Shown here: positions 21,408-44,698 of the stretch, piece after piece
Layout of the letters: each line of letters opens with the position of its first letter
How positions within the stretch are numbered: the first letter of the stretch is position 1
From: Bacteroidales bacterium
GTDB lineage: Bacteria; Bacteroidota; Bacteroidia; Bacteroidales; UBA932
Direction of reading: 5' to 3'
DNA: 54,584 nt
NCBI GenBank assembly: GCA_017480345.1
Contig: JAFVAU010000033.1
Span: 1-54,584, forward strand
The notes under the pieces: model-generated
The model's database searches: none
Told to the model about the DNA's origin: nothing
The model's input: only the letters and a program-made list of their open reading frames with translations
Made by a program: the position numbers and the translations under genes

Positions 21408-22550
21408 ATGAAACCTATTACCACAATTATTCCCGTCCAGGACCGCAAGCAGCTCAAGGCATTTATCCGCTTTCCCCTGGACCTTTACAAAGACTGCGAG
21501 AACTGGGTTCCTCCCTTCGAGGACGATGAATTCAAATCCCTGGGAGACCAGAATCCATCCCTGGAGTTCTGTGAAAGGGAGCTTTATCTGGCCTACCAGG
21601 ACAATAAGATTGTGGGGCGCGTGGCCGCCATCATCAACCACAAGGCCGACAAAAAATTCGGCGAAGTCACCGTCCGTTTTGGCTGGATAGACTTCATCGA
21701 AGACTTCGATGTGGCACAGGCCCTTATCAAGGCCGTCATGGTCTGGGGAGCCAAACGGGGCGCTACGCATATCAAGGGCCCCCTGGGCTTTACGGACATG
21801 GACCGCGAAGGCCTGCTGGTGGAAGGATTCGAGCGGGAAAGTCCCTTCACCGTCATCTATAACTATCCCTATTATCCGGAGTACCTGGAGCGCATGGGCT
21901 TCACCAAGGATGCCGACTGGACCCAGCGTTACATGGACTTTGACGGCACCCTGCCGTCCATGTACCAATATACAGACCTGGTGGAAAAACGCTTCGGCCT
22001 GCATATTTACCGCGCAAAGAACATCAAGCAGATGATTCGCCGGGGCCGGGAGATGTTCTATGTGCTCAATGCCGCCTTTGATCCGCTGTACGAGTACACC
22101 AAACTCTCCGAGGAGCAGATAGAGAACTATGTGAAGCAGTACGCCCCCGTCATGAACAAAGACCTGGTGGCCTTCGTGGTGAATGAGAAAGACGAACTGG
22201 TTTCCTTCCTGGTAACCATGCCGCACATCAGTTCCGGCGTTCGGAAAGCCAAGGGACGCATCTTCCCCTTCGGCTGGATGCACATCCTTCCCCAACTCAA
22301 CGCCAAGAAGAACCACATTACGGAAGGCCTCCTGATTGGTGTTCTGCCGGAGTACCAGGCCAAAGGCGCGGTGCTTCTCATGCTCAAGTACCTGCATGAA
22401 AATTACATCCGCCTGGGAATCAAGCGGATGTTAATGAACCCGCAGCTGGAAGACAACCATAAGGTGCAGACTCTCTTTGGAGACTACAACCCGCAGCCGT
22501 ATCAACGCCGCCGCAGTTATGTAAAGGAATTGCGGGCTGAAGAGCTCTAG
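21408..22550 (+). CDS. GNAT-like protein, paralogue A
   Basis: 380 residues of an uncharacterised family with a GNAT-like fold. Landmarks: FPLDLYKDCENWVPPFEDDE near the start, IVGRVAAIINHK, IKGPLGFTDMDREGLLVEGF near the middle, and a C-terminal half with EGLLIGVLPEYQAKGAV resembling the acyl-CoA-binding stretch. It is clearly paralogous to 39178-40305, which shares LDLY-x(5)-VPP, VGRI-x-G-I-I and GPL-x-[FY]-x-D-x-[DE]-REG-[LM]-LVEGF. Its stop overlaps the stop of the convergent ACP gene in the palindrome CTAG. ACP genes sit beside both paralogues, so an acyl-ACP-dependent acyltransferase is my inference; no function is established. Confidence 0.8.
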   Translation: MKPITTIIPVQDRKQLKAFIRFPLDLYKDCENWVPPFEDDEFKSLGDQNPSLEFCERELYLAYQDNKIVGRVAAIINHKADKKFGEVTVRFGWIDFIEDFDVAQALIKAVMVWGAKRGATHIKGPLGFTDMDREGLLVEGFERESPFTVIYNYPYYPEYLERMGFTKDADWTQRYMDFDGTLPSMYQYTDLVEKRFGLHIYRAKNIKQMIRRGREMFYVLNAAFDPLYEYTKLSEEQIENYVKQYAPVMNKDLVAFVVNEKDELVSFLVTMPHISSGVRKAKGRIFPFGWMHILPQLNAKKNHITEGLLIGVLPEYQAKGAVLLMLKYLHENYIRLGIKRMLMNPQLEDNHKVQTLFGDYNPQPYQRRRSYVKELRAEEL

Positions 22551-22792
22551 GAAAGAGCCTTCAGCACCGCATCGCATACTTCCCCGACGGTTGTGGGCAT
22601 AGCCACTCCGTCGGGGAATTTCATACCAAACTTTTCTTCCGTGGCCAGGGCCAGCAGAAGCATGGACAGGGAGTCCACGCCCAGCCCGCGGGAAAGTTCC
22701 GTCTCATAGCTTACGCCCGTCAGGTCCGTGGCGGGGCGGATGACCGAGAGAACCTCCTTGAGGCCGGCCAGAACTTCTTCCTTCGTCATCAT
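22547..22792 (-). CDS. Acyl carrier protein (dedicated)
   Basis: 81 residues, acidic, with the phosphopantetheine attachment motif GVDSLS (Ser at about 42). Its ATG overlaps the stop of the acyl-ligase gene in ATGA, so the two are translationally coupled, and an ATGATG start gives two possible first codons. It differs from the second ACP at 41324-41557 (GADSLD), which looks like the housekeeping type. It is most likely the acyl acceptor of the adjacent AMP-forming ligase. Its stop shares CTAG with the convergent GNAT-like gene. Confidence 0.85.
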   Translation of the reverse strand: MMTKEEVLAGLKEVLSVIRPATDLTGVSYETELSRGLGVDSLSMLLLALATEEKFGMKFPDGVAMPTTVGEVCDAVLKALS

Positions 22793-24288
22793 ATACGGGA
22801 CACTTTCATGCTGCCGGTGCGCTTGAAATCTTCCGTGCGCACGGTGACTTTGCGGATCTGATGGGTGGAAGGAAGGGTGGCGTTCACCTTGTCCACCAGG
22901 GCGTTCATATAGGCTTCCACCTCTTCCCAAGGCTTGCCGTCAAAGGCAGGCATGAAGGGCAGAATCTCCACGGCGATCACCTGGTTTCCATTGAGCTCGT
23001 CTTCCTTCACCATGGCGTCGCGGACGCAAGGATCGGCATAGAAGGGCTCTTCCAGGCTCTCCGGGCTCACGTTTTCACCGTTGGAAAGCACAATGACGTT
23101 CTTGATGCGGCCGGTAATATACAGGAAGCCGTCCTCGTCAAAGCGGCAGAGGTCTCCGGTACGCAGCCAACCGTCCTCCGTAAGGGCCTCGGCGGTGCGC
23201 TCGGGGTCTTTGTAGTAACCGGAGAAGACGTTGTCTCCCTTAATCCACAGTTCTCCGTCCACCAGCTTGGTCTCCTGACCGGGATATACGCGGCCGATGG
23301 AATGAGGATTGGGCAGCGGATCCTTGTTGGCCGATGTCAGGTTGGCGCCTTCCGTAAGGCCGTATCCGAAGCAGAACTTCACACCCAGCTTGGTGAAGAT
23401 GTCCACCAGGCGCGGCGGCACGTTGGCGGCGCCGGCAATGATCTGACGCAGGTTTCCGCCCAGGAACTGCGGACCGTACATCTTCACAAGTCCGGCCAGG
23501 ATGTCGCAGATACCGGGCACAATGACAAGGATGGTGGGCTTGATGGCGGGAAGCTGGCCCACGGCGGCTTTCATGTCTTCACAGGTGAAGATGAGGTTGC
23601 CGGTATAGAAGCAGCCCATGGTGCCGGCGATGAGGCCGAAAACGTGGCTGAAGGGCAACAGGGCCAGGTAGCGATCCTGCCCAATCACGGGACCCGGGCG
23701 GTAAGTGGCGTTGAAGTTACCGCGCATGAGGGCGCGATGGCTGAGTACGGCACCCTTGGGAGCGCCGGTGGTGCCGCCCGTGAAGAAAATGGCGGCCGTG
23801 CTCTCGGGATCCACCTGGGTGGAAGGAGCACCCGTTTCAGCAATAGAGGCGGCAGGGCATACCTTTACGCCCTGCAGTTTGCCGGTAAGCGGCATGAATT
23901 CCTCACGCACGAAGACGGCGGCAATGTCAAATTTCATGCAGGAACCCACCAGGGCCATTTCCGGAAGACCGGCAGGGATGTTCATAGCCACATAGCCGGC
24001 AGAGGTGATGGCCAGGAACAGCTCGATGGCATCCAGGCTGTTGCGGTCAAAAATGCCGATATGGGCACCCTTGGGAAGGCCCAGGCCTTCAATGAAGGCA
24101 CGGCGCCGTGCAATCCGCTCTCCCAGCTCCTGGTAGGTGTAAACCTTACCCTGGTGCGAAACGGCGGGGTTGGACGCATACTCAGTGGTGAACCAGTCCA
24201 CGAACTGAGGCATGGTGGGTAAATACTTTAGGCGGCTCAGCTCCTCCGGAGTGAGCAGGGACTCGAAGTACTCTTTGCTTGTAATCAT
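22789..24288 (-). CDS. AMP-forming acyl-CoA/acyl-ACP synthetase
   Basis: 499 residues of the adenylate-forming (ANL) superfamily. The P-loop is FFTGGTTGAPKGAVLSH; A5 is GYGLTEGAN; A7/A8 include GWLRTGDLCRFDEDGFLYI and GRIKNVIVLSNGENVSPE; the C-terminal Lys region is KRTGSMKVSR. It activates a carboxylate, by family and context a fatty acid, as the acyl-adenylate and passes it to CoA or, here more likely, to the ACP encoded next. It is third in a minus-strand operon (priA, serine hydrolase, ligase, ACP). A similar ligase-ACP pairing is known for acyl-ACP synthetases that feed aminolipid or natural-product pathways. Confidence 0.88.
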   Translation of the reverse strand: MITSKEYFESLLTPEELSRLKYLPTMPQFVDWFTTEYASNPAVSHQGKVYTYQELGERIARRRAFIEGLGLPKGAHIGIFDRNSLDAIELFLAITSAGYVAMNIPAGLPEMALVGSCMKFDIAAVFVREEFMPLTGKLQGVKVCPAASIAETGAPSTQVDPESTAAIFFTGGTTGAPKGAVLSHRALMRGNFNATYRPGPVIGQDRYLALLPFSHVFGLIAGTMGCFYTGNLIFTCEDMKAAVGQLPAIKPTILVIVPGICDILAGLVKMYGPQFLGGNLRQIIAGAANVPPRLVDIFTKLGVKFCFGYGLTEGANLTSANKDPLPNPHSIGRVYPGQETKLVDGELWIKGDNVFSGYYKDPERTAEALTEDGWLRTGDLCRFDEDGFLYITGRIKNVIVLSNGENVSPESLEEPFYADPCVRDAMVKEDELNGNQVIAVEILPFMPAFDGKPWEEVEAYMNALVDKVNATLPSTHQIRKVTVRTEDFKRTGSMKVSRI

Positions 24289-32519: not shown

Positions 32520-34145
32520 ATGAGAAAATGGATTCTGGCAATTCTGATGGCATGTTTACCGGCTTTATCCAGTGCACAGGAAGAGTCGGTGCTCCGGGCG
32601 GCGCTTTTTCTGACCGGCGCCGCGTCCGAGGAAGAAGTGGATGAGGAGTGGATCCGGCGTCTGGAGTGGACAGGAAAGCTTAAAATCAATTCCGGGAGGC
32701 TCCGTCCCGGCCTTCTGACAGATTCCCAGATAGCCTCGATAGGCCGATACAGGGCTTCCTACGGAGACATCCTTTCCTGGGAAGAGCTGGCCCTGGTGGA
32801 TGGTTTTGACCGGGAAACGGTGAACATCCTCCGGCCTTTCCTTTCCCTGGAATCCCGCCGCCTTCCCGGAGTTACGGATACGGTTAAAGTCCGCTCCGAG
32901 GCTATCCTTCGGGGAATGCTCAAAAATTTCGGCCTCAAGGCCAAAACAGGCACGGACACCTGGAGGGTGGGAGGAGCCTGGCGGGCGCCGGACTGGACGG
33001 CCCATGCGGAGTGGTCCGGCGGCCCGGTGCGTCTGATCATCGGAGATTTCAATGCCCGCTACGGGGAAGGCCTCTGCTTCTGGAGCGGCTTCTCCATGGA
33101 AAGCCTGGGCACGGTGGATGCCTTTTTCAAGCGCCCGACCGGCCTCTCCCCCGTCTGGTCCTATTCATCGGCCGATGTTCACAGGGGCCTGGCGGCAGAA
33201 TATGAGGGTACCGGCTGGCGGGTCTCCGCCTTCGGGACGCTCAAAAAAGTATTCGGACTTCATGGCGAATATCTGGGCCGATATGGCCAGGTGGGCGCGA
33301 TGGCGGGCTGGTCACAGGCCGATGGCTGGAGTGTTTCCCTGTCCGGCCGGGCGAATCTTCGGGGCTGGGACTTGGGGGCCGAAGCCGCCCTCCGGCACGG
33401 GATGCCGGCCGGAAAGCTTTCCTTAAGAAGCAGAGCGGGAGAAAACGGAAAATGGGCCCTCCAGGCCCGCGTTATCCCCAGCCGCTTCAGCGGGAAGAAG
33501 AACGGAGAATATGCCCTGGCCGCCGGCTATTCCCTCAAAAGCGGCCGATGGGTATCCCTGGCCGGTCAAAGCGGATTCGGCAGTTCCGTTCCGGCCTGGA
33601 ACCTTTCTTTGACGGTGGACGCTTCCCTGCTGCCCCGCCCCGGAGTGGACCCGCGCCGCCATCAAGTCAGGGCCTATCTGACGGGCAGCTGGCAATTTGC
33701 ATCGGCCTGGAAGGGGGAACTCAAAGTGACGGAGCGCTACCGGAACTACGAACCCTCCCGGCTTTCTGTCAGGGGAAGCCTGCAATTTGCCTATGGCCCC
33801 TGGCTGTCCGTCTTCCGGGCAGAGGGCGTCCACTGCAAGGATTGGGGCTTCCTATCCTATCTGGAAGGCGGTTATAAAGGGTCCTCCCTGCAGGCCTATC
33901 TGCGTTTCTGCGGCTTTTCCATCGCAAACTGGGACGACCGTATCTATGTCTATGAACGGGATGCCCCGGGGAATTTCTCCGTTCCGGCCTATTCGGGAAA
34001 GGGACTGTCCCTACAAGGAATGGCAGGCTACAAACTCCGCCTGGGGAAATGGACTTTGAAAGCATATTTGCGGGGCGGCTACATGCTAAGGGTACAGAAA
34101 GAGCCGTCTCCCACGCTGGCCGTGCAGTTACAGGTGCAAAGATAG
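32520..34145 (+). CDS. Helix-hairpin-helix outer-membrane barrel protein
   Basis: 541 residues: signal peptide (ILAILMACLPALSSAQ), a ComEA-like helix-hairpin-helix region (LLTDSQIASIGRYRASYGDI, then WEELALVDGFDRETV at about 60-105), and a long C-terminal half of alternating aromatic strands typical of an outer-membrane beta-barrel, with the family motif GDFNARYGEGLCFWSGF. It ends VQLQVQR, a plausible barrel end. This Bacteroidetes family is uncharacterised; the HhH suggests DNA contact near the outer membrane, and a link to DNA uptake has been only speculated. It precedes the MMPL operon on the same strand. Confidence 0.75.
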   Translation: MRKWILAILMACLPALSSAQEESVLRAALFLTGAASEEEVDEEWIRRLEWTGKLKINSGRLRPGLLTDSQIASIGRYRASYGDILSWEELALVDGFDRETVNILRPFLSLESRRLPGVTDTVKVRSEAILRGMLKNFGLKAKTGTDTWRVGGAWRAPDWTAHAEWSGGPVRLIIGDFNARYGEGLCFWSGFSMESLGTVDAFFKRPTGLSPVWSYSSADVHRGLAAEYEGTGWRVSAFGTLKKVFGLHGEYLGRYGQVGAMAGWSQADGWSVSLSGRANLRGWDLGAEAALRHGMPAGKLSLRSRAGENGKWALQARVIPSRFSGKKNGEYALAAGYSLKSGRWVSLAGQSGFGSSVPAWNLSLTVDASLLPRPGVDPRRHQVRAYLTGSWQFASAWKGELKVTERYRNYEPSRLSVRGSLQFAYGPWLSVFRAEGVHCKDWGFLSYLEGGYKGSSLQAYLRFCGFSIANWDDRIYVYERDAPGNFSVPAYSGKGLSLQGMAGYKLRLGKWTLKAYLRGGYMLRVQKEPSPTLAVQLQVQR

Positions 34146-34167: not shown

Positions 34168-34175
34168 TATATTTG
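34168..34175 (+). promoter_or_regulatory. -7 promoter element TATATTTG (MMPL-fak operon)
   Basis: Exact match 23 bases before the MMPL ATG, so the lipid operon has its own promoter apart from the HhH gene. Confidence 0.55.
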
Positions 34176-34198: not shown

Positions 34199-36688
34199 AT
34201 GCACAGAATCTTTCTGCCCGTATATCATTTCTTCAAAGACCGCAAGGCCCTGTTGTATACCCTTCTGATAGCTTCTACGGCTGTCTTTGCCTGGTTCGGT
34301 TCCAAGATCCAGCTGGAAGAGGACATTGTCAAGCTCCTCCCCCGCTCCTCTACCTCCAACGAACTGGCGTTCAGTGATATCGGCCTCATTGACAAAATCT
34401 TTGTCCAGGTCACTTCACGGGATACGTTGAATCCGGTCCCCTCCAAGAAACTGGGGCAGGTGGCAGAGCAGTTCTGCGACGCCGTGATGGAAAGGGACAG
34501 TGCCACGCATTACCTGACGGGGGCGCTGGCCGGGCTCAGTATAGACACCGCCATGGAAGCGATGGATTTCGGCCTCACGCACCTGCCCACATTCATTGAT
34601 ACGGCCTGGTACAAGTACATTGACGCCGCCCTGGAACCGGAAGCCTTCGCAGAGCAGATGGAGGCCAACTACCAGCTGGTCATGGAAGATGAGACCGGAG
34701 ACGACTCCCAGCTGGCCAGCATGGATCCGCTGGGCCTGAGGAACGCCCTGTTCCAGGATTTGTTCGCAGACAGCAACATGGGCGGTTTCGCCATGGAGGA
34801 CGGCCACCTTTTCTGCCCGGACAAAACCGTAGCCCTGGGCTTTCTCACCCCCGGTTTCGCCTACACCAATTCCGGGGAGGCCACCCGCATGATTGCCATG
34901 CTTGATAAGGTGGCGGCCGAACTTGAGGCCCAGAACCCTGATGTGCGCATCATGATGCACGGAAATCCCCATGGCAGCGTATCCAATGCCGGCACCATCA
35001 AGAAAGACCTGATATGGACCATCGGCCTGTCCCTGCTCATTATCCTGGTTATCATGATGTTGAGCTTCCATCATCTCTCCTATATCTGGCAGCAGGTGGT
35101 CCCTGTGGTATATGGCTCCCTCTTTGCCCTGGCCTGCATGTACTGGCTCAAGGGCGTCATGTCCCTGATGGCGCTGGGACTCAGTGCCGTGGTCATGGGT
35201 GTAGCCATCAGCTACTGCCTGCACCTGCTCATCCACTATTATTACAGGGGGGATGCGGAACAGACGCTCCGGGAAGAGTCCACGCCCATCTTCCTGGGCT
35301 GCCTCACCACCATCGGCGCCTTCCTGGGCCTCCTGTTCACGGAAAGCGAGCTGCTGAGGGATTTCGGTCTCTTTGCCACCTTCGCCCTCATCGGCAACAC
35401 CTTCTTCGTACTGGTGTTCCTTCCCCATTTCCTGCGCCCTTCCCAGATCCGCTTCAAGCGCACGCACGGCTTCCCGCTGGTGGAAAAAATCAACAGCCTG
35501 CCCTGGGACCGCAATCCCTGGGTCATCGGCACCATGGTGGTCCTCATCCTCGTAGGTGTGGTCATGAGCCCCCGCGTGAAGTTTGACAGCGACCTCAATA
35601 ACCTGGACTACGACAATGCCACCCTGCGGGAAAGCCAGGACTTGTACAACCGCAAGAACAACGACGGCTACATGCATGAGTTCTTTGCGGCCTGGGACCA
35701 GGACAACCTGGACAAGGCGCTGGAATACAACGAGGGCTTCATCCATGTGCTGGATTCCCTGAAGGAGGAGGGACTGGTTCATTCCTATGCTCCCATTGGC
35801 AAACTCCTTCTGCATTCCACCGCCAAACAGCAGCAGCGCATAGATGCCTGGAATGCCTATTGGACACGCTCCAAGGTGCGGGACGTAAGGCTCCGCCTGG
35901 CCGAGGCCGAGCGTCAGTATGGCCTTCCTGCGGGCTTCTACGACCCCTTCCTGGGCTTCATCCGCGGCAAATACGAACCCGGAGACCTCATTAAATCCGG
36001 CATCGTGCCGGCCGGCCTCCTCTCCAATTATGTAGAGAAGCAGGAAAGTGGCCGATACATGGTGTTCACGGATGTGTCCTATGACAAGGAAGTCACTGCA
36101 CCCCTGTACAAGCAGCTCACCTCCACGGACCATGTCTTCGTGCTGAATCCCTTCTATTATTGCCGGGACATGGTGGAGATTGTGCATGACGATTTCGATA
36201 CCACCCTGTGGATTTCCAGTATCTTCGTGCTGCTGGTGCTCCTATTCAGCTTCCGCAACATCTGGATAGCCCTGGTGGCCTTCTTCCCTATGTTCGTGAG
36301 CTGGTATGTGATGCAGGGATACATGGCCCTCTTCGGCCTGGAATTCAACCTGATCAATATTGTTATCTCCACCTTCATTTACGGTATCGGCGTGGATTAC
36401 AGCATCTTTGTGATGGAGGGTCTGCTCTCCGAAGCCCGCAAGGGAGAGAACAAGGTGCTTAAATTCCACAAGGTGGCCATCTTCTACAGTGCCCTCATCC
36501 TGGCTGTGGTCACCTTCTCCCTCATCTTCGCCCGCCATCCGGCCATCCATTCCATCGGCCTTATCACGCTCATTGGAATGGCGTCCACCATCCTGATAAC
36601 CTATTCCCTTCAGCCCTGGATTTTCCGCAAGCTGTGCAAGATTCCTTTCTTCCGCCGCGGATTCCGCATTCCTGAAAACCTCGAATGA
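34199..36688 (+). CDS. MMPL/RND-superfamily lipid exporter
   Basis: 829 residues with the RND layout: TM1 near 18-36, a large periplasmic loop, TM2-6 about 265-420 (TIGLSLLIILVIMMLSF, SLMALGLSAVVMGVAISYCL), TM7 near 487, a second periplasmic domain, and TM8-12 about 655-815 (IVISTFIYGIGVDYSIFVM). The GVDYSIF segment is the expected RND/SSD signature for proton coupling in TM10. MMPL proteins export lipids or lipid-linked molecules. Start at ATG 34199 follows a promoter; the longer frame begins inside the HhH gene. Its stop overlaps the FakA-like start in ATGA, first of five tightly spaced lipid genes. Confidence 0.88.
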   Translation: MHRIFLPVYHFFKDRKALLYTLLIASTAVFAWFGSKIQLEEDIVKLLPRSSTSNELAFSDIGLIDKIFVQVTSRDTLNPVPSKKLGQVAEQFCDAVMERDSATHYLTGALAGLSIDTAMEAMDFGLTHLPTFIDTAWYKYIDAALEPEAFAEQMEANYQLVMEDETGDDSQLASMDPLGLRNALFQDLFADSNMGGFAMEDGHLFCPDKTVALGFLTPGFAYTNSGEATRMIAMLDKVAAELEAQNPDVRIMMHGNPHGSVSNAGTIKKDLIWTIGLSLLIILVIMMLSFHHLSYIWQQVVPVVYGSLFALACMYWLKGVMSLMALGLSAVVMGVAISYCLHLLIHYYYRGDAEQTLREESTPIFLGCLTTIGAFLGLLFTESELLRDFGLFATFALIGNTFFVLVFLPHFLRPSQIRFKRTHGFPLVEKINSLPWDRNPWVIGTMVVLILVGVVMSPRVKFDSDLNNLDYDNATLRESQDLYNRKNNDGYMHEFFAAWDQDNLDKALEYNEGFIHVLDSLKEEGLVHSYAPIGKLLLHSTAKQQQRIDAWNAYWTRSKVRDVRLRLAEAERQYGLPAGFYDPFLGFIRGKYEPGDLIKSGIVPAGLLSNYVEKQESGRYMVFTDVSYDKEVTAPLYKQLTSTDHVFVLNPFYYCRDMVEIVHDDFDTTLWISSIFVLLVLLFSFRNIWIALVAFFPMFVSWYVMQGYMALFGLEFNLINIVISTFIYGIGVDYSIFVMEGLLSEARKGENKVLKFHKVAIFYSALILAVVTFSLIFARHPAIHSIGLITLIGMASTILITYSLQPWIFRKLCKIPFFRRGFRIPENLE

Positions 36689-38316
36689 ACCTGAACGCCA
36701 GACTATACCTGAACCTGATCAGGGGCGGAGCCGCCCGCCTGGCAGAGAACCGCCAGGAGATTAACGACCTCAATGTGTTTCCCATTCCGGACGGAGACAC
36801 CGGAGACAATATGTACATGACCATCGAGGCCGGTACCCATGCCTCCGGGGAAAGCCTGGGAGAAATGGCCGCAGCGGTTTCCGGCGGCATGCTGCTGGGG
36901 GCCCGGGGTAATTCCGGAGTTATCCTTTCCCGCATCTTCGCCGGCATGGGCAAGGCTTTCACGGGCCTTGACGAGGCCGATGTCCAGGCCTTCGGGAAAG
37001 CGATGGAAGCCGCTGTGAAAGAAGCCTACGGCGCGGTTTCCCAGCCGGTGGAAGGAACCATCCTCACGGTGCTCCGGGAAGGCGTTGCCGCCGCCGAAGG
37101 CTCCTCTTCCCTGGAAGAATACATGGACCTGATGATAGCCGGCATGGACCTTTCCCTGCAGCATACGCCGGAGCTTTTGGACGTGCTCAAAAAGGCCGGC
37201 GTGGTGGACAGCGGCGGAGCCGGGCTCCTTTCCATTGCAGAAGGCATGAGGGATGCCCTGAAAGGCAGATTCCCGGTCGAGGCCGGGAATGACGGAAATG
37301 GTCTGCCCGGGAATGAAGCCCCGGTCATGCCCGGCCCCGTTCGGGCATCCATTGATTTCAATGCCTTCACGGAAGACAGCGAGCTGGAATTCGGCTATTG
37401 CACGGAATTCCTCCTGCGGCTCCAGCGCTCCAAAGTGGATCTGGAGCATTTTGACGAGAGCGTCATATCGGCCTGGCTGGCCACACAGGGAGATTCCCTG
37501 GTCTTTTTCCGCGACGGTTCCATCGTGAAGGTACACGTCCACACCAAAGACCCCGGCGCGGTGCTTTCCAAGTGCCGGCAGTGGGGCGAATACCTTACCG
37601 TCAAGGTGGAGAACATGACGCTCCAGCACCATGAGAACCACATGGACCAGCGCTTCAAGAGAAACGCAAAAGCCCTTGGCATCGTGACGGTTGCCGCCGG
37701 AGAAGGCCTGGAAGCCACTTTCCGGGAAATGGGGGCCGATGCCGTCATCCGGGGCGGTCAGACCATGAACCCCTCCGTGGAAAGTTTCCTGGAGGCCTTC
37801 AAGGCCGTACAGGCCCAGACCATCCTGGTCTTCCCCAACAACAGCAACATCCTCCTGACAGCCCGCCAGGCAGCCGGGCTCTATAAAGACGCCCGCGTGG
37901 AGGTGGTTCCCACCAAAACGCTGGGAGAAGGCTATTACGCCATGGCAAATCTCCAGCCGGACCTTCCTTTGGAAGAGCTTCTGCCCAGCCTGGAGGAAGC
38001 CGCGGCCTCCGTCACCACCGGCTCCGTCTCCAAGGCCATCCGCACCACGGCCGAAGCCCGCGAGGGAGATTACATCGGTTTCAGTGGAAAAGACATCCTC
38101 TGCAGCAGCCCTTCCCGCGAAGAGACCTTGAAGGCGCTTGCCGCCAAGTTGGATGCCGCATCGGCCGACATCGCTATCCTGCTGCAGGGAGAAGGCGTTC
38201 CCCCGGAGGAAGCCCACAGCTTGCAGGAAACCCTTCAGAAGGCCTCTCCCCTGTCGGAGGTCATCCTGATAGACGGAAAACAACCTGTTTACGATTATAT
38301 CTTAGTGCTATGTTAA
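36685..38316 (+). CDS. fakA: FakA-like fatty-acid kinase (DAK2 domain)
   Basis: 543 residues, close to the ~550 of Firmicutes FakA. The N-terminal DAK2 kinase domain carries the ATP/Mg motif NVFPIPDGDTGDNMYMTIEA and ARGNSGVILSRIFAGMGKAF; a middle domain and a C-terminal FakB-binding region (about 330-543, starting near NAKALGIVTVAAGEGLEATF) follow. In Firmicutes, FakA phosphorylates a fatty acid held by FakB to acyl-phosphate. It overlaps MMPL by four bases and the FakB-like gene by seven. Function here rests on homology and on the adjacent fakB and plsX. Confidence 0.85.
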   Translation: MNLNARLYLNLIRGGAARLAENRQEINDLNVFPIPDGDTGDNMYMTIEAGTHASGESLGEMAAAVSGGMLLGARGNSGVILSRIFAGMGKAFTGLDEADVQAFGKAMEAAVKEAYGAVSQPVEGTILTVLREGVAAAEGSSSLEEYMDLMIAGMDLSLQHTPELLDVLKKAGVVDSGGAGLLSIAEGMRDALKGRFPVEAGNDGNGLPGNEAPVMPGPVRASIDFNAFTEDSELEFGYCTEFLLRLQRSKVDLEHFDESVISAWLATQGDSLVFFRDGSIVKVHVHTKDPGAVLSKCRQWGEYLTVKVENMTLQHHENHMDQRFKRNAKALGIVTVAAGEGLEATFREMGADAVIRGGQTMNPSVESFLEAFKAVQAQTILVFPNNSNILLTARQAAGLYKDARVEVVPTKTLGEGYYAMANLQPDLPLEELLPSLEEAAASVTTGSVSKAIRTTAEAREGDYIGFSGKDILCSSPSREETLKALAAKLDAASADIAILLQGEGVPPEEAHSLQETLQKASPLSEVILIDGKQPVYDYILVLC

Positions 38317-39176
38317 AATTATACACGGACACCGATACCGACATCACCCCTTCGCTGGCGGCGGAATACGGTTACAGCCTCATCTCCATGCCTTACAGCA
38401 TCGAGGCGCAGACCACCTATCCTTACGTGGATTTCGAGACCTTCGACGCGCATGCCTTCTATGACAGGCTCCGTGGCGGCGTATTGCCCACCACCAGCGC
38501 CATCTCCAAGGAGCAGTACATCCAGTTCTTCGAGAAGGACTTTGCCGCCGGAAACCAGATTCTTTATGTCCACTTCTCCCGCGCCATGACCAATACCTTC
38601 GACGCCATGGACCAGGCGGTTGCCGAACTCAGGGAGAAGTACCCGGCCGCCCGTTTTGAGGAGATTGACACCAAGGGCATCACCACCATCAGCTACGCCA
38701 TCGTGCGTGAGGTGGGAGACCTGGTGAAGGCCGGCAAGACCCTGGACGAAATCCTGGCCTGGGCGGCCGACGAGGTGGACCACTTCGCCATGTATTTCTT
38801 TGCCGATGACCTCAAGTTCTTCCGCCGTAGCGGCCGTGTGGGAGGCCTTGCGGCCACCATGGGCACCCTGATCGGCGTGCGTCCCCTCATCCACATGAGC
38901 CAGGAGGGCAAGATGATTTCCGTGGGCACCGCCAAGGGACGTCCCAAGGCCATCGACTTCCTTCTGAATAAGGTGGGTGAACTGGGAGACGACCTCCAGA
39001 ACCACCGCATCTGTATCGGCCATTCCGACGCTCCGGAGATTGCCCATGAACTGGGCCGTCTCATCGAGGAGAAATACGGGAAACAGAATCTTGTCTATGT
39101 GGACGTGAACCCCACCGCCGGCAGCCATTGCGGCCCCAACGGCGTGGGCGTCTGCTTCCACGCCAAGCACCGTTAA
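38310..39176 (+). CDS. fakB: FakB-like fatty-acid-binding protein (DegV family)
   Basis: 288 residues of the DegV fold. Landmarks: YTDTDTDITPSLAAEYG near the start, the fatty-acid carboxylate loop PTTSAIS at about 63-69 (TSxxS type), RRSGRVGGLAATMGTLIGVR, and a C-terminal GSHCGPNGVGVCF. DegV/FakB proteins bind a fatty acid for phosphorylation by FakA. Paired directly with the FakA-like kinase (seven-base overlap, ATGTTAA). The single fakB suggests one main acyl-chain specificity, which cannot be read from sequence. Confidence 0.85.
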   Translation: MLKLYTDTDTDITPSLAAEYGYSLISMPYSIEAQTTYPYVDFETFDAHAFYDRLRGGVLPTTSAISKEQYIQFFEKDFAAGNQILYVHFSRAMTNTFDAMDQAVAELREKYPAARFEEIDTKGITTISYAIVREVGDLVKAGKTLDEILAWAADEVDHFAMYFFADDLKFFRRSGRVGGLAATMGTLIGVRPLIHMSQEGKMISVGTAKGRPKAIDFLLNKVGELGDDLQNHRICIGHSDAPEIAHELGRLIEEKYGKQNLVYVDVNPTAGSHCGPNGVGVCFHAKHR

Positions 39177-39177
39177 T

Positions 39178-40305
39178 ATGATAGAAGTCAAAGAGGTTGC
39201 AACTGTAAAGCAGCAGAAGGAGTTCCTAAACTTCGCGCTGGATCTGTACCAGGGCAATGGCTGCTATGTCCCTCCGCTTTATGGAGACGAGAAGAAGATG
39301 TTCCGGGAAGACTATGTGTACCGGAGCAGCTGCGATTCCGTCTTTTTCAACGCCTATGAAGACGGCGTCATGGTGGGCCGCATCCAGGGCATCATCCAGA
39401 AGGATGCCAATGCCAAGAACGGGGAGAAGCGCTGCCGTTTCTGCCGTTTTGACGCCATAGACAAGCTGGAAGTGTCCCGCGCCCTGTTTGCCGCCGTAGA
39501 AAAATGGGCGCAGGAAAAAGGCATGGACACGCTGGTGGGCCCTCTCAATTATTCCGACCTGGAGCGCGAAGGCATGCTGGTGGAAGGCTTTGACCAGCCC
39601 TCCACCTTTGAGCAGAACTACAATTACGCCTACTACAAGGACCATGTGGAGGCCCTGGGCTTCCAAAAAGAAATTGACTGGACGGCCAGCCGCCTTTACG
39701 GTGCACGCGATGCAGAGACCCTGGAAGAGCTGGAGCAGTTGATAAATTTTATCTTCAAGCGTTACAAGCTGCATTACGGGACAGCCAAAAACGGCCGTCA
39801 GCTGTTGAAAAAATACGCCGACGGCATGTTTGACCTCATTGACCGCTCCTATGAAGGCTTGTACGGGACCGTGCCCTTCACCCCCGGCATGCGGAAACTG
39901 GTGCTGGACAATTTCTCCCTGGTCATCAGCCCCCAATATACGGCCGTCATCCTGGATGAGAATGAGAAGATCGTATGCTTCGGCCTGGCTTTCCCTTCCC
40001 TCAGCCGTGCGCTGGTAGGGACCCGCGGAAAGCTCCTTCCTTCCACGCTTCTGAACCTGCTGGACTGCATCAAGAACCCGGACATCCTGGATCTCTGCCT
40101 GGTGGGAGTGGACCCCGAATACCTGAACAGGGGCATCTCCGGCGCCCTTTCCCTGGCCATCATGAAGATGCTCCGGGACAATCCCCGCCTCCGCTGGGCC
40201 GATACCAACCTGAACCTGGAAGACAATTACGCCATCCTGAACCAGTGGCACCGCTTCAAGCGTGAAGAGTGCAAACGGTTCCGCTCTTACGTGAAAAGCC
40301 TATGA
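39178..40305 (+). CDS. GNAT-like protein, paralogue B
   Basis: 375 residues, paralogue of 21408-22550. Shared landmarks: FALDLYQGNGCYVPPLYGDE, VGRIQGIIQ, LVGPLNYSDLEREGMLVEGF, and a C-terminal LVGVDPEYLNRGISGALSLA that looks like the cofactor-binding stretch of GNAT enzymes. One base separates it from fakB, and its stop overlaps the plsX start in ATGA, so it is translated as part of the fatty-acid activation operon. An acyltransferase using acyl-ACP or acyl-phosphate is my inference; no member of the family has a function I know of. Confidence 0.8.
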   Translation: MIEVKEVATVKQQKEFLNFALDLYQGNGCYVPPLYGDEKKMFREDYVYRSSCDSVFFNAYEDGVMVGRIQGIIQKDANAKNGEKRCRFCRFDAIDKLEVSRALFAAVEKWAQEKGMDTLVGPLNYSDLEREGMLVEGFDQPSTFEQNYNYAYYKDHVEALGFQKEIDWTASRLYGARDAETLEELEQLINFIFKRYKLHYGTAKNGRQLLKKYADGMFDLIDRSYEGLYGTVPFTPGMRKLVLDNFSLVISPQYTAVILDENEKIVCFGLAFPSLSRALVGTRGKLLPSTLLNLLDCIKNPDILDLCLVGVDPEYLNRGISGALSLAIMKMLRDNPRLRWADTNLNLEDNYAILNQWHRFKREECKRFRSYVKSL

Positions 40306-41321
40306 TTAAGATCTTAGTAGACTGTTTCGGCGGAGACCATTGCCCCGAGGCGCCTGTAGAGGGTGCTCTGAAGGCCCTTGCGGCCAATCCTGACCTGAAA
40401 ATCGGCCTTTTGGGAGATGAGACCGTCCTGAAGGGTCAGCTGGAGGGAAAGGATTATGATGTCTCCCGCGTGGAGATTATCCATGCGCCGGAAGTGATTG
40501 GCTGCGACGAGAAGCCCACCGATGTGGTGCGGCTCAAACGCAATTCCTCCATGATGAAGGGCATCATCCTGCTCCGGGACAGCGACGACGTGGCCGCCCT
40601 GGTTTCCACCGGCTCCACCGGAGCCCTGGTGACGGGCGCTCTGGTACGCCTGGGACGCATCCCCGGCGTTATCCGGCCGGCCTTCTGCCCCCTCCTTCCC
40701 ACTATGAATGGCGGCCTGGTGGGCATTTGCGACAGCGGCGCCAATGTGGAAGTGACATCGGCCCATCTGCGTCAGTTCGCCATCATGGCTTCCCTGTACA
40801 TGGAGAATGTGTATGGCGTGAAAAACCCGCGCGTGGCCCTTTTGAACGTGGGTTTGGAGGCCGAAAAGGGAGATACCGTCCGGCAGGAGGCCTATCCCTT
40901 GCTCCGGCAGACGGAGGGGCTCAACTTCGTGGGAAACATGGAAAGCCGGGACCTTCTGAGCGGAAAATACGATGTGGTGGTGGCCGACGGATTCAGCGGC
41001 AACGTGCTGGTGAAAACCACCGAAGGCACGGCGCTGGAACTCCTCAAGAAGATTAAAAAAGATATCTACAGCCGCTCCCTGTACAAGATGGGCGCCCTCC
41101 TGATGAAACGGATGTTCAAGGAGGAAAAAGAGTTCATGAACTATCAGAACTATGGCGGAAGCGTGCTCCTGGGCACCGCCAAGGTGGTGGTGAAGGGACA
41201 TGGCTCCTCCAACGCCGTGGCGGTGGAAAAATGCATCGAACAAGCCTATCGGATGGAGGTTTCCGGCTTATCGACCCAAATTGAAAAAGAAATTGCCAAA
41301 TACGAACATTACGAAGACTAA
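40302..41321 (+). CDS. plsX: Phosphate acyltransferase PlsX
   Basis: 339 residues. PlsX landmarks: ILVDCFGGDHCPEAPVEGAL near the start, VSTGSTGALVTGALVRLGRI, RPAFCPLLPTMNG, VVADGFSGNVLVKTTEG, and KVVVKGHGSSNA. It interconverts acyl-ACP and acyl-phosphate at the membrane. With FakA/FakB upstream and an ACP immediately downstream, acyl-phosphate made by the kinase could be moved to ACP here. The upstream frame extension to 40269 is inside the GNAT-like gene; ATG 40302 is the family start. Confidence 0.93.
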   Translation: MIKILVDCFGGDHCPEAPVEGALKALAANPDLKIGLLGDETVLKGQLEGKDYDVSRVEIIHAPEVIGCDEKPTDVVRLKRNSSMMKGIILLRDSDDVAALVSTGSTGALVTGALVRLGRIPGVIRPAFCPLLPTMNGGLVGICDSGANVEVTSAHLRQFAIMASLYMENVYGVKNPRVALLNVGLEAEKGDTVRQEAYPLLRQTEGLNFVGNMESRDLLSGKYDVVVADGFSGNVLVKTTEGTALELLKKIKKDIYSRSLYKMGALLMKRMFKEEKEFMNYQNYGGSVLLGTAKVVVKGHGSSNAVAVEKCIEQAYRMEVSGLSTQIEKEIAKYEHYED

Positions 41322-41323
41322 CT

Positions 41324-41557
41324 ATGTTTGAAAAAGTACAAACCATCCTGGCCAAGCAGCTTCGCCTGGATCCTTCCCGGATTACTCCGGAATCCCTAAT
41401 CAAGAAAGACCTGGGGGCCGATTCCCTGGACATCCTTCAACTGCTCATGCGCATCGAGGACCAGTACGGGATTGTGATTCCGGACCAGGCCCTGGCCAAA
41501 TTCGAAACGGTGAAAGACGTAGTGGACTATCTGGAAAAACAGCAAGTTCAGTTGTGA
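41324..41557 (+). CDS. acpP: Acyl carrier protein
   Basis: 77 residues, acidic four-helix ACP with the phosphopantetheine site GADSLD (Ser at about 34) and the typical IEDQYGIVIPDQAL helix. Three bases after plsX. It carries acyl chains as thioesters in fatty-acid and lipid synthesis. It may be the general ACP or one private to this operon; a second ACP (22547-22792) pairs with the acyl ligase. Confidence 0.93.
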   Translation: MFEKVQTILAKQLRLDPSRITPESLIKKDLGADSLDILQLLMRIEDQYGIVIPDQALAKFETVKDVVDYLEKQQVQL

Positions 41558-41574: not shown

Positions 41575-41582
41575 TAAATTTG
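41575..41582 (+). promoter_or_regulatory. -7 promoter element TAAATTTG
   Basis: Exact match 17 bases before the nucleoside kinase ATG. Confidence 0.5.
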
Positions 41583-41599: not shown

Positions 41600-43255
41600 A
41601 TGGTCCAGGTCTATTGCAAAAACACCAAAGAAAACAAACGTTTCCCGGAAGGCACCTCCCTTGCCCAGATGCTCTCGGAGTTCGACTGCAAGTCTCCCTA
41701 TCCCATCGTATCGGCCAAGGTGAACAACGTGTCCCAGGGACTCAAGTTCAAGGTCTACCAGAATAAGGACATCGAATTCATAGATGTCCGTGAGTCGAGC
41801 GGCATGAGAGTTTACTGCCGCTCGCTTTATTTTCTGCTGTACAAATCGGCCTGTGACCTCTTCCCCGGCAGCAAGCTCTACATAGAGCACCCCATCTCCA
41901 ACGGTTATTTCTGCCATATCCGCAAGGCCGATGATACGGAGATCACGCCCGAGGATATCCTGAAGCTGGAAATCCGGATGAAGGACCTGGTGGGCAAGGA
42001 CCTCCCCTTCCACCGGTATGACGTGCAGACGGAAAGGGCCATCAAGGAGTTCCGCAAGGCCGGTTTCGAAGACAAGGTGCGCCTGCTCCAGACCAGCGGG
42101 GAAGCCTATACGGACTATTACACCCTGGGAGAAACGGCCGACTATTTCTACGGGAAACTGGTTCCTTCCACCGGTTATCTCACCGTCTGGGCCATCCAGC
42201 CTTACCATGACGGACTCCTGCTCAGAGGACCGTCTCACAAAGACCCTTCCCGGGTGGAAGAATTTGTGGACCAGCCCAAGACCTTCGAGATGTTCAAGGA
42301 AGCCCTCCGCTGGAACATCATCATGGGCCTGAGCACCGTGGGAGACGTGAACGAGGCCTTCCTGAACGGACGCGCCAGCGAACTTATCCAGATAGCGGAA
42401 GCCCTGCAGGAGAAGAAAATCGTCCAGATTGCGGAGGAGATTGACCGTCGCTACCACAGCGAAAATCCCCTTCAGGTTGTCCTTATCACCGGCCCCTCCT
42501 CTTCGGGTAAAACCACCTTCTGCAAGCGGCTGTCCGTCCAGCTCAAGGCCTGCGGACTGCACCCCATGTCCATGAGTACGGACGACTATTTCGTGAACCG
42601 GGTGGAAACCCCCAAGTTCCCGGACGGCTCCTACGATTTCGACAATTTTGACACGGTGGACCACGACCTCATGGAGGCCGATATCATGAAACTGATCGCC
42701 GGAGAGGAAGTCTCCGTTCCGGAATACAACTTCGTGACGGGCCTCAGGGAATACAACGGCAAGAAGCTCAAGCTGGGAGAAGGCCGCATCCTCCTTATCG
42801 AAGGAATCCATGCCCTGAACCCTGCGCTCACCAGCAAGATTCCCGAAAGCGCCAAATTCCGGATTTTCATCAACACCCTCACCGGAACCCTCCTGGACGA
42901 CCACAACAGCATTCCCACCAGCGACAACCGCCTGCTGCGCCGTATCGTAAGAGACTACAACGCCGGCTCCTTCACCGCCCGCGAATCCATCTCCAACTGG
43001 CAGAACGTGCTGGATGCGGAAACCAAGTGGATCTATCCCTATCAGGAAATGGCCGATGTCATGTTCAACAGCGCCTATCTCATCGAGTTCGCGGTGCTGA
43101 AGAACCATGCGGAGCCCATCCTTCGGAGCGTTCCCCAGAACTGTGCGGAATATGCGGAGGCCCATCGGCTCCTCAAATTCATCCACTATTTCACGCCCGT
43201 TCCGGACAAGGAAATCCCCGCCACTTCCCTCCTTCGCGAATTTATCGGAGGATAG
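41600..43255 (+). CDS. Nucleoside kinase (TGS/ThrRS-like plus uridine kinase)
   Basis: 551 residues in three parts: a TGS-like domain (about 1-65), a second domain like the threonyl-tRNA-synthetase editing region (about 70-200, with YFCHIRKADDTEITPEDI), and a C-terminal uridine-kinase-type P-loop domain with VVLITGPSSSGKTTFCKRLS near 295-313 and MSTDDYFVNR after it. The fusion is standard in Bacteroidetes. It probably phosphorylates a pyrimidine nucleoside using a nucleotide donor; the role of the synthetase-like half is unknown. Own promoter upstream; follows the lipid operon. Confidence 0.88.
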   Translation: MVQVYCKNTKENKRFPEGTSLAQMLSEFDCKSPYPIVSAKVNNVSQGLKFKVYQNKDIEFIDVRESSGMRVYCRSLYFLLYKSACDLFPGSKLYIEHPISNGYFCHIRKADDTEITPEDILKLEIRMKDLVGKDLPFHRYDVQTERAIKEFRKAGFEDKVRLLQTSGEAYTDYYTLGETADYFYGKLVPSTGYLTVWAIQPYHDGLLLRGPSHKDPSRVEEFVDQPKTFEMFKEALRWNIIMGLSTVGDVNEAFLNGRASELIQIAEALQEKKIVQIAEEIDRRYHSENPLQVVLITGPSSSGKTTFCKRLSVQLKACGLHPMSMSTDDYFVNRVETPKFPDGSYDFDNFDTVDHDLMEADIMKLIAGEEVSVPEYNFVTGLREYNGKKLKLGEGRILLIEGIHALNPALTSKIPESAKFRIFINTLTGTLLDDHNSIPTSDNRLLRRIVRDYNAGSFTARESISNWQNVLDAETKWIYPYQEMADVMFNSAYLIEFAVLKNHAEPILRSVPQNCAEYAEAHRLLKFIHYFTPVPDKEIPATSLLREFIGG

Positions 43256-43261
43256 AAGGTC

Positions 43262-43618
43262 TTATCGGGCGATGAGGCCGCAGCCCAGCATGATGAGGAA
43301 AACGCCCACCCATTGCTGCCACACCACCGTCTCCTTGAAGAAGATGATGGCGATGAACATGCCCAGCAGGAAGCTCATGGAAGAAAGCGGATACACCTGG
43401 CTGAAGGGATAACTCTTGAGCATGTACATCCATTCAATAACGCCTGCAATGCCACAGACGCCGGCGGCCAGCAGCCACCAGTTGCAGAGCACGCTGCCTC
43501 GGAAGAAGCCCCAGGTCCAGGAAAAAGGGTCCATGTGATTGGCCGCTACCTTGAAGAGCGACTGCGCGCTGCACATGAGCACCGACTGGATGAATGATAA
43601 TAAAAGTAGTCTGAACAT
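43262..43618 (-). CDS. Small EamA/SMR-like transporter
   Basis: 118 residues with four hydrophobic segments (FRLLLLSFIQSVLMCSAQSL, WWLLAAGVCGIAGVIEW, LSSMSFLLGMFIAIIFF, WVGVFLIMLGCGLIA), the size and layout of half-size drug/metabolite transporters that act as dimers. Motifs PLSSMSF and FFKETVV match EamA-type helices. Substrate unknown. I placed the start at ATG 43618; the open frame continues upstream through the deoxyhypusine-synthase-like gene but as a shadow. It converges with the nucleoside kinase, with six bases between the stops. Confidence 0.8.
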   Translation of the reverse strand: MFRLLLLSFIQSVLMCSAQSLFKVAANHMDPFSWTWGFFRGSVLCNWWLLAAGVCGIAGVIEWMYMLKSYPFSQVYPLSSMSFLLGMFIAIIFFKETVVWQQWVGVFLIMLGCGLIAR

Positions 43619-43624
43619 TATTTG

Positions 43625-43632
43625 CAAATATA
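43625..43632 (-). promoter_or_regulatory. -7 promoter element TATATTTG
   Basis: Exact match six bases before the transporter ATG, so the message is leaderless or nearly so. Confidence 0.45.
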
Positions 43633-43653
43633 GCGTTTCTCGTCTTTTTTTCC

Positions 43654-43661
43654 TAATTTTG
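43654..43661 (+). promoter_or_regulatory. -7 promoter element TAATTTTG
   Basis: Exact match 62 bases before the deoxyhypusine-synthase-like gene, in a divergent promoter region. Confidence 0.5.
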
Positions 43662-43723
43662 CAGTGAATCCGGAGGTTGGAAGCCACAGACTGGCTTCGC
43701 CGCCGGAAGTAAAACAAACAAAA

Positions 43724-44698
43724 ATGGAAAAGGGACCTATCTCTCAATTCATTACCCATCACTACCGTCATTTCAATGCGGCCTCCCTGGTAGACGCCGC
43801 CAAGGCTTATGAAGACCTCCTGAACAAGGGTGGTAAAATGTTCCTGGCCATGGCCGGTGCCATGTCCACCGCCGAACTGGGCCTTTCCCTGGCAGAAATG
43901 ATCCGCCAGGACAAAATCTCCTTCGTCTGCTGCTCTGCCAACAACCTGGAGGAAGACATCATGAACCTGGTGGCCCACAGCCACTATTATCGCGTACCCG
44001 GTTACCGTGACCTCACCCCCAAGCAGGAACAGGAACTGCTGGACAACCACTACAACCGCGTTACGGATACCTGCATCCCCGAAGAAGAAGCTTTCCGCCG
44101 CCTGGAAAAGCACCTGGTAGAGGTGTGGGACAAGGCCAAGGCAGAAGGAAAGAGATACCTCCCCTACGAGTTCATCTATCAGATGATCCGCAGCGGCGTT
44201 CTGGAGCAGTACTACGAAATCGATCCCAAGGACAGCTGGGTTGTAGCCGCCTGCGAGAAGAACATCCCCATCATCTGCCCCGCCTGGGAAGACTGCACCA
44301 CCGGTAACATCTTTACCGCCCACGTGATTCGTGGAGAATATGATCCGCACATGGTCATCCAGGGCGTGGAAGTGATGATGTTCCTGGTAGACTGGTACAA
44401 GAAGAACAGCCAGGGCGCCGGTGTGGGCTTCTTCCAGATTGGTGGCGGCACCGCCGGTGACTTCCCCATCTGCTGCGTTCCCATGATGGAGCAGGACCTG
44501 GGCTGGACAGGCACTCCCCTCTGGGCCTATTTCTGCCAGATCTCCGATTCCACCACTTCCTACGGTTCCTATTCCGGCGCCGTCCCCAACGAGAAAATCA
44601 CCTGGGGCAAGCTGGCTCCGGATACGCCCAAGTTCATCGTGGAGTCCGACGCCACCATCGTGGCACCGCTCATCTTCTCCTATGTCCTGGGCTGGTAA
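43724..44698 (+). CDS. Deoxyhypusine-synthase-family protein
   Basis: 324 residues of the deoxyhypusine synthase fold (NAD-dependent aminobutyl transfer). Landmarks: FLAMAGAMSTAELGLSLAEM, the GNIFTAHVIRGEYDP segment, VGFFQIGGGTAGDFPICC, and DSTTSYGSYSGAVPNEKITW near the C-terminus. In the last block the catalytic-lysine region of the family reads EKITWGKL. Bacteria lack eIF5A, so bacterial members are thought to make homospermidine or act on other amines; the product here is unknown. ATG 43724 chosen; an earlier in-frame start at 43664 lies at the transcription start. It ends in a terminator at 44721. Confidence 0.85.
   Translation: MEKGPISQFITHHYRHFNAASLVDAAKAYEDLLNKGGKMFLAMAGAMSTAELGLSLAEMIRQDKISFVCCSANNLEEDIMNLVAHSHYYRVPGYRDLTPKQEQELLDNHYNRVTDTCIPEEEAFRRLEKHLVEVWDKAKAEGKRYLPYEFIYQMIRSGVLEQYYEIDPKDSWVVAACEKNIPIICPAWEDCTTGNIFTAHVIRGEYDPHMVIQGVEVMMFLVDWYKKNSQGAGVGFFQIGGGTAGDFPICCVPMMEQDLGWTGTPLWAYFCQISDSTTSYGSYSGAVPNEKITWGKLAPDTPKFIVESDATIVAPLIFSYVLGW

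Follow-up and report, generated by a model that had tools for sequence, protein, structure and literature searches.

To what end would a member of the Bacteroidales keep genes for a fatty acid kinase, an acyl-phosphate transferase, and an acyl carrier protein (ACP) in one operon with an acyltransferase and an exporter-like protein? The question is raised by a six-gene locus, MMPL-FakA-FakB-GNAT1-PlsX-ACP (positions 34199-41557), on contig JAFVAU010000033.1 of the Bacteroidales bacterium assembly GCA_017480345.1 (GTDB lineage Bacteroidales; UBA932). The whole stretch of 54,584 nucleotides is referred to here as the window and is contig C26 of the assembly, which spans 2.22 Mb and is 91% complete. 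The answer favored here, with a probability of roughly 0.56, is that Fak, PlsX, and the dedicated ACP load free fatty acids for an N-acyltransferase of the ceramide synthase family (GNAT1), giving a (dihydro)ceramide-type lipid.

Organization of the operon

All six genes lie on the plus strand, in the order and with the tight junctions that a sequence-only reading had described; profile matches and the recurrence of the order in 80 homologous loci confirm that description. The features of the locus are as follows:

34168..34175, plus strand: TAnnTTTG, a -7 promoter motif and probable operon promoter, 23 nt ahead of MMPL
34199..36688, plus strand: MMPL/RND-type exporter of 829 aa (PF03176, 67.5 bits; cut-off 20.5)
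36685..38316, plus strand: FakA/YloV-type fatty acid kinase (Dak2, FakA-like_M, and FakA-like_C; TIGR03599, 496.6 bits; cut-off 396.1)
38310..39176, plus strand: FakB/DegV fatty-acid-binding partner (PF02645, 170.3 bits)
39178..40305, plus strand: GNAT1, a tandem-GNAT acyltransferase of 375 aa, placed by homology in the bacterial ceramide synthase (CC_1154/YghO) family
40302..41321, plus strand: PlsX acyl-phosphate:ACP acyltransferase (TIGR00182, 335.5 bits; cut-off 243.4)
41324..41557, plus strand: operon ACP (PF00550), with its serine in GADSLD
41575..41582, plus strand: TAnnTTTG, likely downstream boundary, ahead of a uridine-kinase-like gene at 41600-43255

Neighboring genes overlap by up to 7 nt or are separated by at most 2 nt: MMPL and FakA share an ATGA overlap, FakA and FakB an ATGTTAA overlap, FakB and GNAT1 are 1 nt apart, GNAT1 and PlsX overlap by ATGA (PlsX starting at 40302), and 2 nt separate PlsX from ACP. 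At its longest, the MMPL frame would begin at 34049, but homologs align from residue 1 of the 34199 start, which was adopted. The motif TAnnTTTG, which we take to be the Bacteroidetes-type -7 promoter motif, is enriched over the whole window (38 copies against 19.28 expected, a count reached by none of 100 shuffles). After 34168, its next plus-strand copy is at 41323, where it coincides with the ACP start codon and is probably a chance match, and the one after that is at 41575. Because such motifs sit ahead of MMPL and ahead of the gene that follows ACP, a single transcript ending at ACP is suggested. The uridine-kinase-like gene was rejected as a member of the unit: it does not keep to one strand from locus to locus, and a -7 motif of its own precedes it. 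Upstream of the operon, positions 32520-34145 encode a 541-aa protein without a Pfam or NCBIfam match, homologs of which adjoin Fak operons on the opposite strand in divergent genomes; one lies near a GNAT paralog (G018).

Family assignment of GNAT1

GNAT1, which the sequence-only reading took for an orphan, uncharacterized protein, is by homology a relative of the bacterial ceramide synthase family represented by Caulobacter CC_1154 and Escherichia coli YghO. It aligns with YghO over 100% of the query at 25.6% identity (7e-27). YghO is located inside a complete ceramide gene set and has been assigned as a ceramide N-acyltransferase (PMC9386255). Across 114 sequences, 24 of them GNAT1, all 30 columns conserved at 93% or above are retained in GNAT1, and at 18 of these columns the four ceramide synthase anchors all have the same residue.

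Profile searches are less specific. The only Pfam match of GNAT1 is to PF00583, at 22.4 bits (cut-off 20.7), and none was reported at E up to 0.01 for PF13444 (Acetyltransf_5), which we take to be the GlsB/OlsB-type N-acyltransferase family of glycine and ornithine lipids. A plain sequence search of the PDB returned two weak matches, both with unrelated proteins (best E 0.18). The list of fold matches contained no solved ceramide synthase of this family, which is not evidence against membership.

Association with serine palmitoyltransferase

The window's own genome encodes a serine palmitoyltransferase (SPT) that scores 484.9 bits to the closest solved SPT (3a2b), against 262 to the next SPT, 249-260 to KBL-type enzymes, and 222 to cysteate-C-fatty acyltransferase. 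Among 200 genomes of the genus, with GNAT1 counted at E up to 1e-90 and SPT at 290 bits or more, GNAT1 occurs in 40 and SPT in 100 (two of the SPT matches being fragments). SPT is present in 37 of the 40 GNAT1 carriers versus 63 of the 160 other genomes (Fisher p = 6e-10) and, in genomes at least 90% complete (rounded completeness), in 15/15 carriers versus 27/65 others (p = 2e-5), although both tests ignore shared ancestry. Mean completeness of the 40 carriers is 87%, so that about five SPT genes are expected to have been missed, and three are missing. Two other GNAT paralog clades do not track SPT (10/18 and 10/17 genomes versus a background of 14/25); the clade of GNAT2, a second paralog in the window, does (8/10). 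The sequence-only reading had suggested an N- or O-acylated lipid, for example an aminolipid, as the product: the N-acylated part of that suggestion is supported, whereas a ceramide-like lipid is likelier than a generic aminolipid because GNAT1 carriers in the genus nearly always have SPT.

A cysteate-C-fatty-acyltransferase homolog scoring 503-517 bits was also found in the genus (L272:6665-7795), in a genome with no SPT match (G013), and a protein 77% identical to it is present in another (L273, G017). By this homology, parts of the genus may make sulfonolipids.

Probable supply of acyl-ACP by Fak and PlsX

In alignment, FakA retains the Asn and the Asp-Gly-Asp-Thr motif of the nucleotide site, the Cys of FGYCTEF, and His-Val-His; the nucleotide-site Asn and Asp, the catalytic Cys, and the His pair have been described for Staphylococcus aureus FakA (PMC9136124). 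The SGR motif of FakB aligns with the GGR of DegV homologs, and its arginine is a candidate equivalent of S. aureus FakB Arg173. Both proteins fall below the NCBIfam equivalog cut-offs (FakA 398.2 against 975 for FakA_VfrB; FakB 92.6 against 350 for FakB1) and pass the broader YloV and DegV models.

The operon PlsX is the only PlsX match in its own genome. No match to PlsY (PF02660) was found in 25 genomes of the genus, the window's own included (58-98% complete), versus 10 of 16 genomes drawn one each from 16 other families of the order. PlsX exceeds its cut-off in eight of the 25 genomes, and FakA is found in the same eight; in two of these (G004 and G011), PlsX is divergent and lies beside its own ACP and a PlsC-like acyltransferase. 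Since no PlsY match was found in these 25 genomes, the usual consumer of acyl-phosphate is missing, and the operon PlsX cannot work as it does in the PlsX/PlsY route. In Enterococcus faecalis, Fak and PlsX have been reported to turn free fatty acids almost wholly into acyl-ACP in vitro (PMC11586512). Because the published chemistry yields acyl-ACP, its supply by Fak and PlsX is, by analogy, likely in this operon as well.

The operon ACP is not the sole ACP of the genome, as a separate ACP of 80 aa is encoded elsewhere. One ACP gene, together with its flanking genes, appears on two contigs (C13 near 56984 and C39 near 7171 of G000; L297, L298), probably an assembly duplicate. A 2407-aa frame with two carrier-protein domains (G000:C11, about 41798-45001; L296, L299) is perhaps a nonribosomal peptide synthetase/polyketide synthase-like gene. 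In G011, FakA and a somewhat shorter FakB (L230:8121-10585) occur without GNAT1 or an operon-type PlsX alongside, and this pair may be a version of the unit that has decayed or been simplified.

Conservation of the locus among relatives

Conservation was assessed in the best 80 of at least 487 confirmed homologous loci, a gene being counted if it shared the strand of the GNAT gene and lay no farther from it than 5.5 kb on the upstream side or 2.5 kb on the downstream side, and only loci with room being scored. Under this rule, PlsX accompanies GNAT in 79/80 loci, FakB in 76/77, FakA in 73/74, ACP in 74/78, and MMPL in 58/68. Median intergenic gaps run from -7 to +8 nt, with single gaps of up to 1.8 kb. 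As the order recurs in these 80 loci, it is not due to chance. Thirteen further loci of the genus (L274-L286), picked mostly for divergence and including two that repeat loci of the 80, contain FakB-GNAT-PlsX-ACP in 12 cases, with PlsX and ACP swapped in one (L278). Uncultured Bacteroidales of the rumen and gut make up the relatives; the locus recorded for Candidatus Cryptobacteroides choladohippi (L172) coincides with one of G406, a member of the window's genus. The check proposed with the sequence-only reading, namely whether the GNAT family sits mostly away from acyl-activation genes, came out in its favor for the GNAT1 subclade, the group surveyed, which stays beside them.

The core of the unit is thus FakA-FakB-GNAT-PlsX-ACP, to which MMPL is a patchy addition, common in close relatives and found also in three loci of only 57% GNAT identity (L167, L169, and L174). 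The MMPL domain is present in the exporter, which scores 129.7 against the HpnN model (cut-off 751.85); its best matches in a PDB sequence search are HpnN (5khn, 6wu0) and MmpL4, covering the C-terminal region only. It is from gene position only that we infer its role as product exporter.

Four Clostridia loci, one from Candidatus Apopatosoma, fall within the GNAT1 clade. All four have PlsX, two have FakA (L161, L171), and the short L164 has a partial FakB. The PlsX proteins of these loci cluster with that of the operon and not with eight others from the order, at weak inner supports. Together, these trees and neighborhoods suggest transfer of the unit between phyla, although single assemblies may be mis-binned. 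GNAT homologs in Vescimonas and Chloroflexota sit in other neighborhoods, the Chloroflexota one being adjoined by a DegV-family gene on the opposite strand.

A parallel GNAT2 set and other acyltransferases

The window contains a second set in which a ceramide synthase-family paralog adjoins means of fatty acid activation:

21408..22550, plus strand: GNAT2, second ceramide synthase-family paralog, 31-33% identical to GNAT1 (start inferred from homolog alignments)
22547..22792, minus strand: ACP2, convergent with GNAT2 (start inferred)
22789..24288, minus strand: AMP-forming acyl-CoA/acyl-ACP synthetase-like ligase, assigned by homology, adjoining ACP2 and GNAT2

The ACP2 gene abuts or overlaps the ligase gene. 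An AMP-forming ligase lies within about 2 kb of GNAT in 8/12 members of the GNAT2 clade, in varying orientations, and in G005 the GNAT, ligase, and ACP genes all share one strand. Judged by homology, the two ceramide synthase-family enzymes of this genome are each paired with an ACP and a means of fatty acid activation.

PlsC-like acyltransferases with a weak zinc-ribbon match are found at L231:744-2117 (G027, from another family of the order; the match there does not reach the Pfam cut-off), L078:1314-2633 (G004), and L310:2069-3385 (G011). The G027 copy is 48-49% identical to the other two, which come after the divergent PlsX-ACP pair of their genomes. A PlsC-type acyltransferase domain also forms part of some large frames (about 1050-1300 aa), and one of these (L073:3-1922, G005) matches MMPL as well, as if it were an exporter-acyltransferase fusion.

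Proposed mechanism and alternative explanations

In the mechanism proposed, FakB would bind a free fatty acid and FakA would phosphorylate it to acyl-phosphate, which PlsX would convert to a thioester, loading the operon's own ACP; PlsX would run in this direction because no PlsY was found to use the acyl-phosphate. With this acyl-ACP as donor, GNAT1 would then acylate the amino group of a long-chain base, either 3-keto-sphinganine or sphinganine, which the SPT encoded elsewhere in the genome would produce. The product would be a (dihydro)ceramide-type lipid, and MMPL, where present, as it is here, would export this lipid, or one derived from it, from the inner membrane. The activation and ACP-loading steps are most likely as described, by homology and by analogy with the published chemistry, and N-acylation is most likely the step that follows, given the family to which GNAT1 belongs, its place in the operon, and its association with SPT. 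Which donor and acceptor GNAT1 uses, what it makes, and what MMPL carries are inferred. These data support the earlier proposal of a Bacteroidetes fatty acid kinase system that is joined to an acyltransferase and that suggests an N-acylated lipid built with scavenged acyl chains. By analogy with the rhodobacterial system, whose special acyl-ACP serves SPT, the acyl-ACP made here may go to SPT, either in addition to GNAT1 or in its place.

Several observations weigh against the ceramide reading. Family membership alone does not fix the acceptor of GNAT1, which forms a long-branched clade with 13 clade-specific positions, so that its substrate may have changed; the GNAT superfamily itself occurs in 189/198 Bacteroidota genomes, and also in genomes of the genus without an SPT match. 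SPT lies outside the operon, on contig C15, versus C26 for the operon. Three of the 40 genus carriers, 82-85% complete, have no SPT, and 63 genus genomes have SPT without GNAT1, from which it follows that ceramide synthesis does not need GNAT1. Among eight loci from divergent carriers, SPT was found in the genomes of three (one of the eight loci repeating a genome of the 200, and the assemblies behind them being possibly incomplete), and three of the four Clostridia loci are in genomes without SPT, the match in one being KBL. Linkage also breaks down in places: one genome of the genus (G283, L276) carries GNAT1 without other operon genes nearby, and no Fak genes lie upstream in the Clostridia locus L170. 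The exporter that the sequence-only reading had tied to the unit is present here but is no constant part of it, as the MMPL gene is missing from 10 of the 68 best loci with room and from all seven divergent genus loci having at least 5 kb upstream of FakA. In G027, where a different contig carries FakA and the beginning of FakB at its end, the place between FakB and PlsX is taken by a PlsC-like acyltransferase rather than a GNAT, and the supply set is therefore read as not tied to one product, a cassette pairable with different acyltransferases. Finally, in the closest characterized system, AasR/AcpR were shown to feed SPT, not the N-acyltransferase (PMC9386255).

Several of these points would suit a rather unlikely alternative, in which the same acyl-supply unit serves a GNAT1 that acylates some other amine (capnine in sulfonolipids, a head group, or an amino acid or small amine), so that the product would be an aminolipid without a sphingoid base. 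The 13 clade-specific positions, the GNAT paralogs in genomes without an SPT match, the GNAT1 carriers without SPT, and the cysteate-C-fatty-acyltransferase homolog of G013 are all compatible with it, as is a gene of the same score class about 12 kb from the operon on the same contig in G021. However, GNAT1 tracks SPT (37/40 genus carriers), whereas the cysteate class, whose identity comes from a structure-sequence search of one member only, occurs in just 3/7 GNAT1 carriers among the 25 genomes, and the lack of a reported PF13444 match (GlsB/OlsB type) at E up to 0.01 also speaks against it. It is improbable, further, that Fak and PlsX provide acyl-ACP for general glycerophospholipids, with GNAT1 either replacing PlsY as glycerol-3-phosphate acyltransferase or acting as a side gene. 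Such a role would agree with the absence of PlsY matches in 25 genus genomes, with the PlsC-like gene between FakB and PlsX in G027 and the PlsX-ACP-acyltransferase sets of G004 and G011, and with the service of Fak/PlsX to phospholipids in Firmicutes (PMC12594616, PMC11586512). GNAT1 as the missing PlsY was nevertheless rejected: PlsY is missing from 25/25 genus genomes but GNAT1 from 18/25, so that GNAT1 is no general substitute. In addition, PF01553 acyltransferases are present in all 25, GNAT1 comes from an N-acyltransferase family, and the finding of PlsX and FakA in only 8/25 weakens the operon as a genus-wide phospholipid route.

GNAT enzymes often acylate proteins, and GNAT1 could in principle modify proteins or regulate the fatty acid kinase pathway, for example by lysine acylation, with no lipid made. 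A paper about the protein lysine acetyltransferases of E. coli (PMC6199490) does mention YghO; its place in a complete ceramide gene set and its listing as a ceramide N-acyltransferase (PMC9386255) make this explanation very improbable. The ceramide reading is retained as the preferred one.

Comparison with known systems and implications

The Firmicute FakAB-PlsX pathway of S. aureus and E. faecalis has FakA, FakB, PlsX, and ACP in common with the operon, with conserved FakA catalytic residues. It differs in that the host here belongs to the Bacteroidales, has no PlsY match, and carries an N-acyltransferase-family gene within the operon, and in that the operon proteins score under the FakA and FakB1 equivalog cut-offs. 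The rhodobacterial dihydroceramide module AasR-AcpR-SPT-CerR/epi-CerS/aca (CC_1165, CC_1163, CC_1162, CC_1164, and CC_1154; the yghO locus in E. coli) resembles it in the N-acyltransferase family, in an ACP with a system activating free fatty acids, and in an SPT in the genome. Unlike that module, which uses the AMP-forming AasR, the operon uses FakA/FakB and PlsX and hence acyl-phosphate; no AMP-forming acyl-ACP synthetase was found among the operon genes and scanned neighbors, whereas the GNAT2 set of the window has one. Rhodobacterial clusters have LptF2/LptG2-type genes nearby, whereas an MMPL gene is found here and SPT lies outside. A run of SPT, GNAT, and epimerase genes in another family of the order (G035, L089) includes a GNAT that is 36% identical to GNAT1 and, unlike it, directly linked to SPT and the epimerase; no acyl-supply genes were recognized on that 9.9-kb contig. 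As for export, HpnN and the MmpL lipid transporters of the RND superfamily likewise have the MMPL domain and are the best PDB matches of the operon exporter, though by its C-terminal region only and with a score far under the HpnN cut-off.

Specialized ACPs and acyl-ACP synthetases are reported to feed bacterial sphingolipid synthesis (PMC9386255), and the sphingolipids of gut Bacteroides to modulate host immune and metabolic functions (PMC10865984). Both fatty acid kinase/PlsX scavenging and specialized acyl-ACP supply for sphingolipids are known already; what appears to be new is their union in one operon, in a lineage without a PlsY match. The best-ranked matches in the open-licence literature contained no report of the operon or of Fak/PlsX joined with ceramide synthesis.

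A broader proposal, put forward tentatively and at somewhat less than even odds, is that the operon represents a second, independently assembled acyl-ACP supply for sphingolipids, in which acyl-phosphate chemistry (Fak and PlsX, with no PlsY) has been re-used for a dedicated ACP and a ceramide synthase-type enzyme. Dietary or host fatty acids would become the N-acyl chains of ceramides, MMPL would serve, where present, as a dedicated export pump, the AMP-ligase, ACP, and GNAT set would run in parallel, and the supply set would be exchangeable between acyltransferases and shared with Clostridia. The genome would then have a two-channel design, with kinase, PlsX, ACP, and GNAT1 alongside AMP-ligase, ACP, and GNAT2. 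If the ceramide reading is true, PlsX and fatty acid kinase would have a role in a lineage where no PlsY was found, acyl-phosphate activation would be a new way to feed the synthesis of sphingolipid-like fats, and uncultured Bacteroidales of the gut and rumen would assemble ceramide-type lipids straight from free fatty acids in their surroundings.

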